NCBI GenBank assembly: GCA_014190235.1
Contig: BJGC01000007.1
Coordinates: forward strand, 19,549-83,548
Reading direction: 5' to 3'
Length of the DNA stretch: 64,000 nucleotides
From: Actinomycetes bacterium
GTDB taxonomy: Bacteria > Actinomycetota > Acidimicrobiia > Acidimicrobiales > Ilumatobacteraceae
Part shown: piece after piece, positions 53,012-59,803 of the stretch
Position numbering within the stretch: position 1 is the first letter of the stretch
How the letters are laid out: every line of letters begins with the position of its first letter
Translations under genes and position numbers: made by a program
Notes under the pieces: generated by a model
Told to the model about the DNA's origin: nothing
What the model saw: only the letters and a program-made list of their open reading frames with translations
The model's database searches: none

Positions 53012-53872
53012 ATGAGTACTACTACGTACATCAGTTCAACAAATAACGTACAACTTGCCCTTCACGATTTCGGCGGCTCTGGTGGTCCAGTATTCCTTTC
53101 GCATGCCACGGGTTTTCATGCGCATTGTTTTGATCCAATAGCAACACTGCTCCGTGAATCATTTCATTGCATGGGTATCGACTACAGAGGGCATGGCGAT
53201 TCTGAGACAATTGATCCAGGAGACCTGCAGTGGACAGACTATGGCGACGATGCCATTGCTGCTGCACGTGTGATGTTTGCCAACTCCGCAAACACACCTC
53301 TCATTGGAGTCGGACATTCAATGGGCGGTGCTGCGTTGCTCTACGCGGCTCTCCATGAACCACATCTATTTCGCGCGTTATTTGTGTACGAGCCAATTGT
53401 GTTTCCGCCAGACGGTTTTCGCCCACAAGGCACGCCAAATCCAATGATCGAAGCAGCCCGAAAGCGTCGCACCACGTTTGACTCCTACGACGCAGCAATT
53501 GCAAACTTTGCATCCAAACCGCCGATGATAAGTTTCGATCCAGTGGCTCGCGAATCATACGTTCGTCATGGTTTTGCTCAAATGCCCAACGGAACAGTTG
53601 AACTAAAATGTCGTCCCGATACAGAGGCACGCACATACGAAACAGGTGGCAGTGCTCCGCAGTGGCATGAGTTGTCGCGTATCACCACACCAACATGGGT
53701 AATGGCCGGAGTACAACAACCATTTCAAGTATCGTCAATTGCTCCGCTGGCGGCCGCTGAGATGCCCTCATGTACTTATGTTCAATGGGATGAGCTCGGA
53801 CACTTTGGTCCATTCGAACATCCTGCCCACATTGCCGGTTTTGTGGGTCGCACGGCGATGACCTTGCGATGA
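53012..53872 (+). CDS. Alpha/beta-fold hydrolase
   Basis: A 286-residue hydrolase: H-A-T-G-F-H-A (oxyanion side), D-Y-R-G-H-G-D-S-E, nucleophile elbow G-H-S-M-G-G, and a late G-H-F-G-P-F with the histidine. ATG 53012 opens S-T-T-T-Y-I and lies 10 bases after the SDR stop; the longer upstream frame overlaps the SDR and should be ignored. Its stop overlaps the PAP2 gene by four bases. Likely a carboxylesterase or thioesterase; the substrate is unknown. Confidence 0.84.
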   Translation: MSTTTYISSTNNVQLALHDFGGSGGPVFLSHATGFHAHCFDPIATLLRESFHCMGIDYRGHGDSETIDPGDLQWTDYGDDAIAAARVMFANSANTPLIGVGHSMGGAALLYAALHEPHLFRALFVYEPIVFPPDGFRPQGTPNPMIEAARKRRTTFDSYDAAIANFASKPPMISFDPVARESYVRHGFAQMPNGTVELKCRPDTEARTYETGGSAPQWHELSRITTPTWVMAGVQQPFQVSSIAPLAAAEMPSCTYVQWDELGHFGPFEHPAHIAGFVGRTAMTLR

Positions 53873-54402
53873 GAGAGAATAATTTCGTGAGACTCGACTC
53901 GTTAGGCGATCGTCTGCTCGAACCACTGCGCAATCACCGAGTGTCCGTGGCGATCTTTGGCGCGGCAAGCACAATTGGTGACTTCAGCATCATCTGGCAT
54001 GCCATTGGACTGATCCGCTCCATCGGGAGCGTTCATCGATTCGGCCAGGCCCTCGTGCTATCTGTCGTCTTGGGCATTGAAAGTTTGGTTGTCAATCAAG
54101 GAGTCAAGCGACTCTTTAAACGCCAACGTCCCACCGTGTCTGGCGATGATCGTTTCGCCGTGCGCGAGCCACGGACGTCAAGTTTTCCGAGCGGACACGC
54201 ATCGTCTGCTGTTTGTGCAGCAATCGTGCTCACCGCATTTTCTGGATGGCCACTCGGTGCACTGTGGGTTTTCATCGCATTAATTGTTGCCCTAAGCCGA
54301 GCAGTTGTTCGGATTCATCACTTCTCTGACATACTCGGAGGACTCGTCATCGGAGCACTTCTAGGGCTGATTGCACTTCCGTTTGTTCATCAGTTTTCTT
54401 GA
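53869..54402 (+). CDS. PAP2-superfamily lipid phosphatase
   Basis: A 177-residue membrane phosphatase. Its three motifs are all present: K-R-L-F-K-R-Q-R-P (KX6RP), P-S-G-H near 103, and S-R-A-V-V-R-I-H-H-F-S-D with the catalytic histidine. About five helices are predicted. It likely dephosphorylates phosphatidate, prenyl diphosphate or a similar lipid at the membrane. ATG 53869 overlaps the hydrolase stop. It ends the plus-strand run; a hairpin follows. Confidence 0.87.
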   Translation: MRENNFVRLDSLGDRLLEPLRNHRVSVAIFGAASTIGDFSIIWHAIGLIRSIGSVHRFGQALVLSVVLGIESLVVNQGVKRLFKRQRPTVSGDDRFAVREPRTSSFPSGHASSAVCAAIVLTAFSGWPLGALWVFIALIVALSRAVVRIHHFSDILGGLVIGALLGLIALPFVHQFS

Positions 54403-54407
54403 CATCG

Positions 54408-54425
54408 TGTGGAGCGTCCTCCACA
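54408..54425. terminator. Hairpin between PAP2 gene and small convergent gene
   Basis: TGTGGAG (54408-54414) pairs perfectly with CTCCACA (54419-54425) around a CGTC loop. AGCGT/ACGCT (54413-54417 and 54426-54430) offers an alternative stem. It lies between the stops of two convergent genes, consistent with a bidirectional terminator. Confidence 0.5.
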
Positions 54426-54432
54426 ACGCTGA

Positions 54433-54600
54433 TTAAGCGACGGTACTTGTGCTAGTTGCAGTCAACAAACTGCGAACATCAAGCAACACATCTGCGACTT
54501 CACCAGATGACACCAACTCTCGACGCAACATTTCTGCAAGCGCTTTATCAATGACGCTAAGCGCCTCAGTAATTACCGCTGCTTCTTGCTGATCGGTCAT
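54433..54600 (-). CDS. Small 55-residue helical acidic protein, function unknown
   Basis: A short gene reading M-T-D-Q-Q-E-A-A-V-I-T-E-A-L-S-V-I-D and ending with R-S-L-L-T-A-T-S-T-S-T-V-A. It is acidic and strongly helical, with heptad-like Leu/Ala spacing, no membrane segment and no Cys. Evidence that it is real: an AAGGG ribosome-binding site eight bases before the ATG, a clean stop just past the PAP2 terminator-type hairpin, codon use like its neighbours, and its presence in an otherwise unexplained 350-base gap. It could be a small regulator or a protein-protein adaptor. Family unknown. Confidence 0.6.
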   Translation of the reverse strand: MTDQQEAAVITEALSVIDKALAEMLRRELVSSGEVADVLLDVRSLLTATSTSTVA

Positions 54601-54631
54601 TTGCGTCGCCCTTCGTATGGTGTGCTCTTGA

Positions 54632-54686
54632 TTCAGAGATTTTCTGAACTGCTTCTACGGTATCTCGTGCGAGATCCCTAATACCG
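54632..54686. promoter_or_regulatory. Cluster of inverted repeats in the divergent spacer
   Basis: Three overlapping symmetries are visible: TTCAGA/TCTGAA (54632-54637 and 54643-54648), ATCTCG-TG-CGAGAT (54662-54675) and CGGTAT/ATACCG (54658-54663 and 54681-54686). They lie between the small gene (start 54600) and the SDR (start 54754), where regulator-binding sites would be expected. The rest of the 153-base spacer shows only the SDR -10 element. Confidence 0.4.
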
Positions 54687-54741
54687 CATCGTACTCAGGA
54701 CTTCCGTCACCCGCAGTGCATGGTCATCATGTTGAACCTTC

Positions 54742-54747
54742 TAGTCT
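54742..54747 (+). promoter_or_regulatory. -10 element TAGTCT, SDR gene
   Basis: Six bases before the ATG at 54754, with no ribosome-binding site in between, as for a leaderless message. Confidence 0.5.
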
Positions 54748-54753
54748 CAGATT

Positions 54754-55626
54754 ATGGATTTTCAAGGACGTACAACCGTGGTCACTGGAGCAGCAAACGG
54801 CATCGGAGCTGCCCTTTCGAGGCGATTTCATGCTGCCGGAGCAAACGTGGTTCTTGCTGACAGAGATGCGGCCCCTCTTGAGCGGGTGACACAAGAACTA
54901 AACGACATTCGTCTCGGAAGCGCGATTGGCGTTGTTGCTGACATCGGAACCGAGTCCGGAAACATTGCACTCATTAATGCTGCTCGCGCCAAGTTTGGTT
55001 TCATTGATCTGTTTTATGCAAACGCCGGAATCGGTGGCGGAACGGACCTTGAGTCAACTGATGAAGCAATGTGGGAAGCGACCTTCAACATTAATTTGAA
55101 CGCACATCGTTGGGCGGCAAAACACTTACTCGGTGAATGGCTCGCCGAAGGGCGCGGATATTTTTGCAGTACGGCTTCCGCTGCAGGGTTACTCTCGCAA
55201 ATCGGATCTGCTCCGTACTCGGTCACCAAGCATGGTGCGGTGGCATTTGCTGAATGGCTGTCAATCACATATGGAGATCGTGGATTGCGCGTGAGTTGCT
55301 TGTGCCCTCAAGGGGTGAACACCAATCTTTTGAACCCACCCACGACAGATTCAGCCGGCGCTATTGCGCCAAATGCAAGCAGCGCTATTGCGCCAAATGC
55401 AAGCAGCGCTATTGCGCCAAATGGCGGTGACGTTGTGAAGTTTGCTGGAGTGGTTCTTGAGCCTAGTGATGTCGCTGAAGTCGTTTATCGAGCCATTGTC
55501 GACGAGCGCTTTTTGATTCTCCCCCACCCTGAAGTTGCCATTTACGAGCAGCGCAAGGCCGCCGACCGTGACAGGTGGCTTGCTGGCATGCGCAAACTAC
55601 AAGCACGCGTATTTGGGACCCTGTAG
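54754..55626 (+). CDS. SDR oxidoreductase with repeat insert
   Basis: A 290-residue short-chain dehydrogenase: T-G-A-A-N-G-I-G-A Rossmann motif, D-R-D-A after the second strand, A-N-A-G-I-G, S-T-A-S-A-A-G and Y-S-V-T-K as the YxxxK pair, followed by C-P-Q-G-V-N-T. The substrate-binding loop region after N-T-N-L-L-N-P-P carries an odd repeat, A-I-A-P-N-A-S-S repeated two and a half times (residues about 203-224). The DNA repeat is nearly perfect, so this looks like a recent expansion in a tolerant loop. The substrate is unknown. Confidence 0.85.
   Translation: MDFQGRTTVVTGAANGIGAALSRRFHAAGANVVLADRDAAPLERVTQELNDIRLGSAIGVVADIGTESGNIALINAARAKFGFIDLFYANAGIGGGTDLESTDEAMWEATFNINLNAHRWAAKHLLGEWLAEGRGYFCSTASAAGLLSQIGSAPYSVTKHGAVAFAEWLSITYGDRGLRVSCLCPQGVNTNLLNPPTTDSAGAIAPNASSAIAPNASSAIAPNGGDVVKFAGVVLEPSDVAEVVYRAIVDERFLILPHPEVAIYEQRKAADRDRWLAGMRKLQARVFGTL
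55360..55423. repeat. 24-base in-frame minisatellite inside the SDR gene
   Basis: The 24-mer GCTATTGCGCCAAATGCAAG plus CAGC occurs at 55360-55383 and 55384-55407 with no differences. A 16-base third copy follows at 55408-55423. Perfect identity and a length divisible by three suggest replication slippage with coding continuity. Confidence 0.93.
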
Positions 55627-55663: not shown

Positions 55664-55670
55664 CTTGGTC

Positions 55671-56696
55671 ATGGCAATACGACTAGATCCTGCTGACGAA
55701 TACATGCACGAGTTAGGACCCGAGTCCAACTTCAACGAAAGCATGTACATCAATTGTTTCGATCCCGCATCAAAAATTGGTGGTTGGTTTCGGATGGGCA
55801 ATCGCGCCAACGAGGGCACTGCAGAGATGACAATCTGTATCTACTTGCCCGATGGTCGAGTTGCTTTTATTTTTAAACGTCCGAGCATCGACAACAACGA
55901 CGCACTCGATGCTGGTGGACTGACTTGGACAATGGTGAAACCATTCGAAGAATTGCGCATCGATTATGTCGGCAAAGTTGTCGTGCTTGATGAACCACAT
56001 CAGATGGCAAATCCAAAAGAAGCATTCGCTAACAATCCATTTTCCGAAGCAGAAGTCCATCTCACATTTACCGGACAAGGAAAGCCAAGCATGTTTGGCG
56101 GAGAACCTGATGTTGCGCACGAAAAACCAGGCGAAGAGTTCGCCAAGGGACACTACGAACAACTCGTCGAAGCAACTGGCAGTATCAGAGTTGGATCAGA
56201 AGAATGGCAGATTAACGGCTGCGGATTACGCGATCATTCGTGGGGGCCACGATATTGGCAAGCACCTTGGTACTACCGTTGGCTGACTGCCAACTTTGGA
56301 AGCGACTTAGGTTTTATGGCCTCTCGTGTCGCCAAAAAAGATGGTCCCGGATCTCGTGGGGGTTTTGTGTGGGACAAAGGTCAAATGCACCTCTGTGACG
56401 ACTGCGAAGTGAGCACCGAGTTTGTCGGAGACGATCAATACCATCAAAAAGTCACAGGCATCTTGCGTTCGTCTCGCTCCAGTAAAGAGTGGCGCTTTGA
56501 AGGCAACGTGATGAGCCTGATTCCGTTGCGCAATCGTCGCCAAGACACAGACGGCAATTGGCTCATGACCCGCATCAGCGAAGGCATGACCCAGTGGACC
56601 ATGACCTCTGGTGAGCACTCTGGTGCAGTGGGTTATGGCTTGTCGGAATACCTTGACCAGATCATCGACGGATCTCCTGTGGGGCTGGCTGAATAG
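55671..56696 (+). CDS. AttH/hydroxyneurosporene-synthase-like (lipocalin-type) protein
   Basis: A 341-residue soluble protein rich in beta strands and aromatic residues. The segment G-L-R-D-H-S-W-G-P-R-Y-W near 185 is the conserved core of the DUF7064/AttH/CrtC-like group, which includes carotenoid 1,2-hydratases. The G-H-Y-E-Q motif, typical of the first calyx, is near 160. No signal peptide. In such families the barrel pair binds a hydrophobic isoprenoid or sterol ligand; that function here is inference. It sits within the lipid-type gene district. Confidence 0.68.
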   Translation: MAIRLDPADEYMHELGPESNFNESMYINCFDPASKIGGWFRMGNRANEGTAEMTICIYLPDGRVAFIFKRPSIDNNDALDAGGLTWTMVKPFEELRIDYVGKVVVLDEPHQMANPKEAFANNPFSEAEVHLTFTGQGKPSMFGGEPDVAHEKPGEEFAKGHYEQLVEATGSIRVGSEEWQINGCGLRDHSWGPRYWQAPWYYRWLTANFGSDLGFMASRVAKKDGPGSRGGFVWDKGQMHLCDDCEVSTEFVGDDQYHQKVTGILRSSRSSKEWRFEGNVMSLIPLRNRRQDTDGNWLMTRISEGMTQWTMTSGEHSGAVGYGLSEYLDQIIDGSPVGLAE

Positions 56697-56737: not shown

Positions 56738-59700
56738 ATGGCTATTCATTTCAGCAATATTCGTCGGTCCCTGTGTCTTGGTCTTGTCAGTTTTTTGACA
56801 GCCGTGTCAGCACTTGTCGCAGTCGCCCCAAACACTGCGTTAGCTGATCCGTTCACATACTCCGACGTCTCGGCTGGTTTTCACAGCAGTTGCTCTCTCT
56901 CCACAGACGGTCGCGCATTGTGTTGGGGCTGGAACTACCAGGGGTACTTAGGAATCGGCAGTCGAGAAACATCAGTCACAGTGCCATCAGTTGTCGCTAC
57001 ACCCGCCGGCGTGCGATTTGTTTCAATCGAAGCCGGAAGCTATTTCACAACATGTGGTCTCACCACAACTGGCGCAGTGTATTGCTGGGGAGAATCTGCT
57101 CTTGGGCGCTGGACAGGTGCGCCATCAATCACCCCCGTGTTGGTCGATCTTCCTTCTGGTGTTGTGGCCACGCAACTCAGTGTTGGCGCAACTCATGCAT
57201 GTGTGATCAGCAACGACGGCGTGTATTGCTGGGGCAACTGGAGCACCGGCGAGTTGGGTGTTGGCGAAATCGAACCAACTGTTACTCCCGTGCATGTCAC
57301 ATTGCCAAATAATCAAGTTGCAGTTTCAATTGCAGCCGGCGTCGCATTTACGTGTATCGCCACAACAACTGGTTCGGCATATTGCTGGGGCACAAACACA
57401 GACGGCCAAACCGGAATCGGATACAAATCCAATCAGAGTTCCCCCATCATGGTGCCAACTGCTGTAGTGGTTCCCGACGGCGTCAACTTCGTACAAGTCA
57501 CAACCGGTCTTAATCGAGCCTGTGCTGTTGACTCCACCGGAGGTGCATGGTGTTGGGGCCACAACTACAACGGAACATTTGGCAATGGGACATACGACAG
57601 CAACTCTTCGCCACAGCGCGTGCTACTTCCGGCAGGAACTTCTTTGTCAAGCGTTTCAACTGGCTGGTATCACACATGTGGCTTGACAACAACAGGGACA
57701 TTATTGTGCTGGGGCACCAACGACAATGGCGAACTCGGCACCGGCACAACGCTTGGTGGCAAGACAATTCGCCAGACAGTGTTGCCAGACGGAGTCGTTG
57801 CCGCCAGCATCAGTGCCGGACTCGGCCAAACCTGCATGCTCTCAACAACCCACGAAGCATGGTGTTGGGGAGTTAATTATTTCGGTTCACTTGGACAAGG
57901 AACCCTTGTTGGCTCAAAACTTCCAGTAAAAATCTTGCCTGTTGGTACACCTACCGTTGCATCGCCTGCTGCGTCCAGTGTTGGTGCCGAACAAGCAACC
58001 GTCGGTGCAACTATTAGTCCCAATGGCCATATTGCATCTGTCGTGTTGGCATTATCAAAAAATTCAACACTTGCCGAATCAACGGTTCGCACCATCGCGT
58101 TGTCGGCTTCTTTGCAAAATACGCCAGCCAAGCGATTTTCATCTTTTGCAATCAGAACTTCGCTCACCGATCTAGATCCAAAGACCACCTACTACTTCGA
58201 GTTTCGTTCAACTAATGCTCTCGGCTCTACCACTTCTGCAATTGGTTCTTTTACAACTACAGGTGATATTCCCGCCGTCAACATTGATCCAATCTCTGAT
58301 ATCCATGGTGACTCAGGCATGGCATCAATGCGCGTGCACCCACATGAGCTCGCCACCACCGCAGAACTCACCTATGCCCAAGATGCATCTTTCACGCGGG
58401 ACGTCCACACCATCGGTCTCGGAACACTTAGGGGCAATGACGCTGTCGCTCTCAGCGCACTCATGCCCGAACTAGATGCACGCACTCAATACTTCGTGCG
58501 AATCAGCGCCACCAACAGACTCGGTACCACTCTTTCATCGGTGATTTCATTTACGACGGTTGGTGCATTACCCACCGCTACCACCGGCGCAGCAACCACC
58601 ACAGGCACAGGTGCCACGATCGAAGCCACTGTCAATGCAATGGACACTCGGGTCACCGCATCTGTTCAATATTGGCTCACGTCATCAAGCCCCGATCTCG
58701 CACAACACACAACAAGCCGCGTGATCAATGGCGCCACAGATCAATCCCTTTCATTTGCCGTCACCGATCTCGCGATTGCTACTAATTACTCGTATCGAGT
58801 CGTGGCCACCAACAACCTGGGCACTGTCATTGGCGACACTCGCACATTGCGCACCCGCGGCGGTTCTCCAATTGTTAGTGCCATCTCTGCCACAGACATC
58901 ACTCAAACTGGTGTCACTGTCAAAGCAACCATCGACTCCAACGAGTTCAGCACATTTACCAAAATGCAACTATCAACTGATCGTTCTTTTGTCGATGACG
59001 TCAGCGAGTACTACGTCGCCCGCACACCTGCGGGATCAACGCGCCAAGCAATTATCCCCGTTGACAACCTCACGCCACGCACTATCTACTTTGCACGTTT
59101 TGTTGCCACTAACAGTAGGGGCTCTACGACAAGTGCGAGCACGAGCTTTGTCACGCGCACTCCAATCGGAGTCTCTATCAACAATGGTGACTCCAGCACC
59201 GATTCTGCCCGTGTGATTCTCAGTATTACTGCGCCAGACAACGCCGACTCTGTCATCATCTCTCACACCCGCACCTTTACAAACCAACGAGTCTTTGATC
59301 TCGATTCCAAGATCGACTGGACACTCGTTGCGCTAACTGGTACCGAAGCAGCCACGCGCACGGTGTATGTCAAATTTGTTCTTACCGACGACACCACTTC
59401 ACCAGTCTTTAGTGACAGCATCACCCTCACGACTCCGACAAGTCTGCCTCGCGACCCTGACTCACCGGTGGGTACCACTACTACCACTGCTGCTCCGACT
59501 ACTGATGTTGTGGCCCCAACTATTGCGGCCGCAACAGTTGGTCCGCAGTTTGCCCTTAAAAAAGGTGTAGCCACTTCGAGTGTGCGCACTCGCTTAACAG
59601 TGTCCACTCGCGACGCAGCATCTGGTGTCGCTCGCATCGAAGTGCGTGACGCATCCAAAAAGAAGACCGTTCTTCGTTCATCAGTTCCGCGCAATTCTGC

Positions 59701-59803
59701 TCGATACTCAGTCAAAGTGCCAGTAGGTTCACGCAGTATTCAATTCAGGGTTATCGACCTTGCCGGCAATGCAACCGCTTGGAGAACAATCGAGTTTCGT
59801 TAA
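56738..59803 (+). CDS. Secreted protein with seven RCC1 blades and FN3-like repeats
   Basis: A 1021-residue exported protein. A signal peptide is predicted to be cut after A-L-A near residue 36. Residues about 40-400 form seven RCC1-type repeats, one full beta-propeller. Each blade has a Cys about nine residues before a C-W-G motif, suggesting one disulfide per blade. Residues about 400-800 hold four FN3-like domains, each closing near a T-x-Y-x-F/V-R-x-x-A-T-N motif. The fifth region is more diverged, and then a Thr-rich linker (T-T-T-T-A-A-P-T-T) leads to a final domain similar to other exported actinobacterial tails. No LPxTG, membrane anchor or enzyme motif was seen. It is probably a surface or matrix protein. 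Confidence 0.85.
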   Translation: MAIHFSNIRRSLCLGLVSFLTAVSALVAVAPNTALADPFTYSDVSAGFHSSCSLSTDGRALCWGWNYQGYLGIGSRETSVTVPSVVATPAGVRFVSIEAGSYFTTCGLTTTGAVYCWGESALGRWTGAPSITPVLVDLPSGVVATQLSVGATHACVISNDGVYCWGNWSTGELGVGEIEPTVTPVHVTLPNNQVAVSIAAGVAFTCIATTTGSAYCWGTNTDGQTGIGYKSNQSSPIMVPTAVVVPDGVNFVQVTTGLNRACAVDSTGGAWCWGHNYNGTFGNGTYDSNSSPQRVLLPAGTSLSSVSTGWYHTCGLTTTGTLLCWGTNDNGELGTGTTLGGKTIRQTVLPDGVVAASISAGLGQTCMLSTTHEAWCWGVNYFGSLGQGTLVGSKLPVKILPVGTPTVASPAASSVGAEQATVGATISPNGHIASVVLALSKNSTLAESTVRTIALSASLQNTPAKRFSSFAIRTSLTDLDPKTTYYFEFRSTNALGSTTSAIGSFTTTGDIPAVNIDPISDIHGDSGMASMRVHPHELATTAELTYAQDASFTRDVHTIGLGTLRGNDAVALSALMPELDARTQYFVRISATNRLGTTLSSVISFTTVGALPTATTGAATTTGTGATIEATVNAMDTRVTASVQYWLTSSSPDLAQHTTSRVINGATDQSLSFAVTDLAIATNYSYRVVATNNLGTVIGDTRTLRTRGGSPIVSAISATDITQTGVTVKATIDSNEFSTFTKMQLSTDRSFVDDVSEYYVARTPAGSTRQAIIPVDNLTPRTIYFARFVATNSRGSTTSASTSFVTRTPIGVSINNGDSSTDSARVILSITAPDNADSVIISHTRTFTNQRVFDLDSKIDWTLVALTGTEAATRTVYVKFVLTDDTTSPVFSDSITLTTPTSLPRDPDSPVGTTTTTAAPTTDVVAPTIAAATVGPQFALKKGVATSSVRTRLTVSTRDAASGVARIEVRDASKKKTVLRSSVPRNSARYSVKVPVGSRSIQFRVIDLAGNATAWRTIEFR

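Follow-up and report, generated by a model that had tools for sequence, protein, structure and literature searches.

A small acidic protein family of the Acidimicrobiia, encoded behind sufU in some orders and apart from it in another

Introduction

The closest described counterparts of the protein family reported here are small proteins encoded with the cysteine desulfurase systems of Fe-S cluster assembly. PMC8593673 describes IscX, of the E. coli ISC system, as binding the desulfurase IscS, forming a complex with IscS-IscU and inhibiting the desulfurase. SufT, a DUF59 protein, is described in PMC9045647 as the product of the last gene of M. tuberculosis sufRBDCSUT, binding both SufS and SufU and working through a reactive cysteine.

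The present family, met as a short frame in a 64,000-nucleotide stretch of Ilumatobacteraceae DNA (hereafter the window), resembles IscX in that it is a small protein encoded, in several orders, with a cysteine desulfurase system, and a similar action is proposed for it here. It differs from IscX in belonging to a SUF rather than an ISC context and in its predicted alpha-hairpin, a shape from which the fold of IscX differs, and none of the Fe-S assembly families of Pfam, that of IscX included, matches the 37 + 37 members searched up to an E-value of 1. With SufT the family has in common its small size and its slot immediately after sufU, which is held in sister orders of the window's own. The two are, however, not homologous, with the SufT family PF01883 unmatched in the 37 + 37 members and the reactive cysteine missing in nearly all of them. 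When the family was considered as a replacement for SufT, PF01883 itself turned up in 40 of 40 genomes, mostly within frames of at least 380 residues which, judged by frame length, look like Mrp-type ATPases; since the matches fall mostly in such long frames, they give no verdict on the loss of a stand-alone SufT.

Two further likenesses lie outside Fe-S assembly. Rop (Rom) of ColE1 matches the window protein in size and in its hairpin of two helices (Z 7.0, with 55 residues superposed at an rmsd of 2.2), however the best Foldseek E-value is 1.5 and the identity ~9%, and with so common an arrangement no relationship is claimed. Members encoded near the suf genes carry the literal string IDEAL and a short helix-turn-helix reminiscent of the IDEAL domain (PF08858), however only two of 37 members match that domain, at a best E-value of 0.02 that fails the curated threshold and is no better than chance over 37 scans; the window protein does not match it, and no kinship is claimed.

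Results

A short gene between PAP2 and SDR genes

The frame and the features that surround it in the window are as follows.

54433..54600, minus strand: small protein gene of 55 codons plus stop, ATG start (open reading frame, conservation, dN/dS, AlphaFold2)
53869..54402, plus strand: PAP2-superfamily phosphatase, convergent neighbour, context only (Pfam PF01569, E 7.9e-20)
54754..55626, plus strand: short-chain dehydrogenase (SDR), divergent neighbour, context only (Pfam PF00106, E 1.9e-39)
54609..54613, minus strand: AAGGG, resembling a Shine-Dalgarno site, set 8 nt from the ATG (sequence; genus relatives)
54408..54425, no strand: 7-bp inverted repeat with a 4-nt loop, between the stops of the two convergent genes (fold z -2.25)

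The original prediction placed here an overlooked minus-strand gene of 55 codons with an ATG start, an AAGGG site eight bases upstream and a hairpin at its 3' end, filling a gap otherwise empty of genes. The ATG frame is present as described, and is the longest such frame inside the 351-bp gap (54403-54753) that separates the PAP2 stop at 54402 from the SDR start at 54754; the AAGGG likewise ends eight bases before the ATG. In genus relatives GAAGG, GAAAGG or GAGAGGAG stands at the position of the AAGGG; the start codon and a GGAG-like site are retained in most relatives. The hairpin holds in part: an inverted repeat does lie past the stop, with a 46-nt segment around it folding at -14 kcal/mol (z -2.25), but it is not specific to the small gene, since it sits at the junction of two convergent genes and is thus equally a feature of the PAP2 gene, and it is followed by no T run, the count of terminator-like sites being zero. 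Stems past the stop of the small gene also fold in most of 30 relatives, but with differing, unrelated sequences. At Rfam cut-offs no RNA element was found in the window or near sufU.

Conservation and selection

An open frame is by itself weak evidence for a gene: of 2000 sequences as long as the gap that were drawn from a first-order Markov model, 615 carry an ATG frame of at least 55 codons on one strand or the other. That such lengths are common in such a gap favours a chance open frame with no gene behind it, however the start and the frame are conserved and purifying selection acts on the sequence, leaving this explanation a vanishingly small probability. It was rejected on conservation and dN/dS, which the bare frame alone would not have allowed.

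The window protein is single copy in its own genome, its only match there being itself. In a search of 61 nearby genomes, the window's included, 53 yield a hit at E <= 1 and 48 still do so at E <= 1e-3, a conservation that is not due to chance. A break of the frame in relatives had been named as the outcome to look for against a real short gene; within the genus the frame is kept, not broken, in 31 of 32 genomes (window included). The Ka/Ks comparison of homologues, proposed at the same time, points the same way, with a median dN/dS of 0.13 and a maximum of 0.51 over the 114 of 378 pairs that passed a filter for unsaturated synonymous change, drawn from 28 distinct coding sequences at 30 loci. 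Pooled over those 28 distinct coding sequences, pN/pS is 0.28, and in the ungapped core it is 0.19 in the gene's own frame, the strand's two remaining frames giving 1.10 and 3.09. Differences between the coding sequences of the small gene fall at codon positions 1, 2 and 3 in the numbers 2918, 1234 and 7622. One antisense frame is also low in pN/pS (0.30), as expected from the silent positions that it shares with the gene's frame. Comparison of the sequences therefore strongly supports a real small protein gene under purifying selection.

Protein properties and predicted structure

The window protein is acidic (pI 4.2), as is the family, with median pI values of 4.21 over 37 proteins and 4.08 over 46. 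AlphaFold2 predicts helices at residues 2-26 and 30-54 (mean pLDDT 85.4, pTM 0.66), so that the protein is predicted to be an acidic two-helix alpha-hairpin, in keeping with the helical, acidic character that had been expected of it. A regulatory or adaptor role, as suggested alongside, would also fit. For one member encoded beside suf genes, the model shows a comparable hairpin plus an extra helix at the C-terminus (pLDDT 86.7). Neither of the two helices predicted for the window protein contains a membrane segment or a signal.

In a mixed alignment of 37 sequences, comprising the window protein and 36 others, eight residues are invariant: D18, R27, E34, D37, L39, L40, D41 and R43 in window numbering, or D11, R20, E27, D30, L32, L33, D34 and R36 in the numbering of the first row. 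Six of the eight are charged. The window protein matches the core pattern of the family, ID-x-aL ... R-[ED]-L-V-S-x-x-E-V-x-D-x-LLD-x-R, in which D, R, E, D, LL, D and R are invariant. Cysteine is present in one of 37 members and three of 46, and the window protein has none; with cysteine so rare, the small protein cannot itself carry sulfur.

Among solved structures, Rop and designed hairpins or bundles come nearest, at Z ~7, a level common for helical bundles; no Foldseek match falls below E 1, and solved structures of Suf proteins are absent from the list of structural matches. A search of PDB sequences returned nothing above chance.

Spread of the family

Two profiles, A1 and A2, were built from 37 rows each, hand-picked out of more sequences and with start codons partly chosen by eye (as in the 76-residue row from L013/L035), A2 being the richer in members from other orders. 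Of 395 class genomes, 128 hold a member by A1 at E <= 0.01, 82 from the window's order and 46 from other orders, and across the phylum A1 finds 21 of 396 genomes at E <= 0.001, all within the class. A2 reports 44 of the 396 phylum genomes at E <= 0.05, comprising 21 in-class genomes at E 1.4e-11 or better and 23 outside the class at E 7.6e-4 to 0.048. These 23 matches are weak, short and partial, mostly within long frames, and were taken as chance. As far as searched, the family thus appears confined to the class Acidimicrobiia, and the named relatives in the GTDB species collection point to Ilumatobacteraceae and other Acidimicrobiia. Contigs L084, L089, L096 and others are titled Bifidobacterium breve, and L118 Acidobacteria; these contigs show the gene order typical of Ilumatobacteraceae, so these organism names look wrong.

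The proteins of the window's order and those encoded behind sufU in other orders form one family. A profile made from 35 sequences of the window's order alone recovers all 46 of the SUF-linked proteins at 29.0-47.6 bits, compared with a maximum of 7.4 bits among 966 shuffled or reversed decoys, and an hhalign comparison of the two alignments gives an E-value of 1.7e-13 at a probability of 98%; common descent follows from these two results. The members are not accounted for by any family of Pfam, NCBIfam or PHROGs, and a literature search of open-licence papers found no publication on such a protein. A phage origin was considered and dropped, the PHROGs matches being weak and scattered (best E 0.013).

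Gene context in other orders

Gene order outside the window's order was examined in all 46 carrier genomes from the A1 search of the class. In every one of them sufU (NifU_N in Pfam) lies upstream of the small gene on the same strand, with a gap of no more than 300 nt in 40 (median ~158 nt) and of 356 to 2088 nt in the remaining six; automatic start choice took inner GTG codons at some loci, so that gaps are overstated by up to ~30 nt, and a single value of -89 arises from an extension of the sufU frame. The usual order is sufC (ABC_tran), sufS (Aminotran_5) and sufU, then the small gene, then an L,D-transpeptidase gene (YkuD). SufS is encoded ahead of sufU in 42 of the 46, with three of the other four belonging to one genus (f40/g62) and the fourth at a contig end. 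G069, G137 and G217 (loci L185, L240 and L253), of one genus, keep sufU and the small gene together with sufS not upstream. In G234, G648 and G118 (L262, L263 and L261) a second, diverged copy of the family lies away from the suf genes.

On the same strand, 39 of the 46 have the transpeptidase gene downstream, several of the seven misses being at contig ends. This arrangement, and the PAP2 gene adjacent in the window, could be read as pointing to a partner of the L,D-transpeptidase or of the cell envelope, however the window's genome keeps its transpeptidase gene beside sufU without the small gene, and the small protein, unlike the YkuD enzyme with its N-terminal hydrophobic stretch, shows neither a membrane segment nor a signal in its two predicted helices. 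We regard an envelope role as very improbable.

Gene context in the window's order

The window's genome carries an uninterrupted run of sufC, sufS, sufU and the YkuD gene that lacks the small gene, and in none of 15 carrier genomes of the same order that were examined does the small gene lie within 1.5 kb of sufU. The window's gene therefore lies apart from the suf genes, and the SUF link is absent in the very order to which it belongs. The order sufU-transpeptidase is common to both groups, so the small gene has either left that junction or joined it. In a genome of the same order without the small gene (G044), a frame named by eye as ferredoxin-like lies between sufU and the transpeptidase gene (L267:4190-4500), occupying the slot that the small gene fills elsewhere.

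Here the small gene is co-directional with none of its neighbours, which vary. On its 3' side lies a convergent block made up of WS/DGAT, DsbA-like and PAP2 genes, or the remnant of that block, which in the window's genome and its near kin is reduced to PAP2. A gene of WS/DGAT, DsbA-like or PAP2 type is faced at 30 of 30 loci in L001-L030, a gene of the lipid block at 20 of 20 in L031-L050 (from genomes partly common with the former) and at 75 of 80 in L081-L160, the other five ending at a contig edge. So regular a position is what a partner of these genes in lipid metabolism, namely the synthesis of storage lipid, would lead one to expect, however genes set tail to tail have no common transcript. 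Of 395 genomes in the class, 264 contain WS/DGAT (PF06974), but the window's genome as a whole lacks it, as do at least 11 other carriers; the small gene, being kept where WS/DGAT is absent, does not depend on it. In addition, queries from the lipid block are unmatched in 20 stretches around the small gene from other orders. A WS/DGAT partner was accordingly rejected despite the striking order, carriers including the window's having lost that gene, and a lipid-metabolism role seems improbable to us.

Discussion

Gene order in the sister orders hints at a SUF role for the family. The interpretation that we favour, tentatively, is that of a small soluble docking or tuning factor for the transfer of sulfur from SufS to SufU in SUF Fe-S assembly. 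The hairpin protein would dock on the cysteine desulfurase SufS and the sulfur acceptor SufU through an invariant charged face (D18, R27, E34, D37, D41 and R43) and, once bound, may adjust the flow of sulfur or the stability of the complex, as IscX does on IscS-IscU. In the window's order, the product of the stand-alone gene would act in trans on the SUF operon elsewhere in the genome.

Support for this SUF role comes from the unbroken presence of sufU upstream in the other-order carriers together with the homology of the two groups. Against it weigh the unlinked position of the gene in the window's order and, in the other orders, the distance between sufU and the small gene, usually ~100-200 nt, so that operon membership is putative. 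Genomes of the class in which no member was detected still have sufU, and the small protein is therefore not an essential SUF part everywhere. No match in sequence or structure to a known Fe-S accessory protein was obtained.

A small, clade-specific helical protein that regulates or adapts without any particular connection to SUF, its partner lying elsewhere and both of its locations reflecting inherited gene order, would account for a gene found in two unrelated neighbourhoods, with neighbours in the window's order that differ and none that is co-directional, and for a predicted hairpin of the common arrangement seen in Rop and designed bundles (Z ~7). The close spacing of sufU and the small gene in many families of the other orders is less easily accommodated, as it appears to outlast the usual neutral persistence of gene order. 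We give this regulator the same standing as the SUF factor, each falling well short of an even chance, so that the SUF role is level with the alternative that the partner is something else.

Doubtful as a whole is the fuller version of the SUF proposal, in which the family would be an undescribed SUF accessory of the Acidimicrobiia, a cysteine-free acidic alpha-hairpin that docks on SufS-SufU to set the flow of sulfur, standing as an independent counterpart both of IscX and of the SufT slot, and moved in one order from the operon to separate control.

The gene itself is real, whilst its function is something that we infer, and the family, small, uncatalogued and tied to SUF across a lineage, holds moderate interest. 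What was a hunch about a 55-codon frame has become a defined protein family of abundant, mostly uncultured actinobacteria of freshwater, marine and soil habitats, and its proposed tie to Fe-S cluster assembly, an essential process, is open to test. Should the tie to SUF prove true, actinobacterial SUF systems gain one more lineage-specific partner, and the class becomes a natural comparison of one gene within the operon and away from it; otherwise there is still a conserved small protein left unnamed by current family libraries.

Beyond the small gene, the SDR gene of the window is adjoined by a gene for a DUF7064/DUF7065 protein (55665-56696, plus strand), a pair kept in most genus relatives, and this is followed at 56738-59803 (plus strand) by a gene for a protein of 1021 residues that combines RCC1-type repeats with fibronectin-like domains. 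Within the SDR frame itself, a 24-bp unit is repeated 2.8 times at 100% identity (55358-55423), encoding in-frame AIAPNASS repeats near the C-terminal part of the enzyme, with the core 12-mer of the repeat present three times in the window and once in the relative L003.
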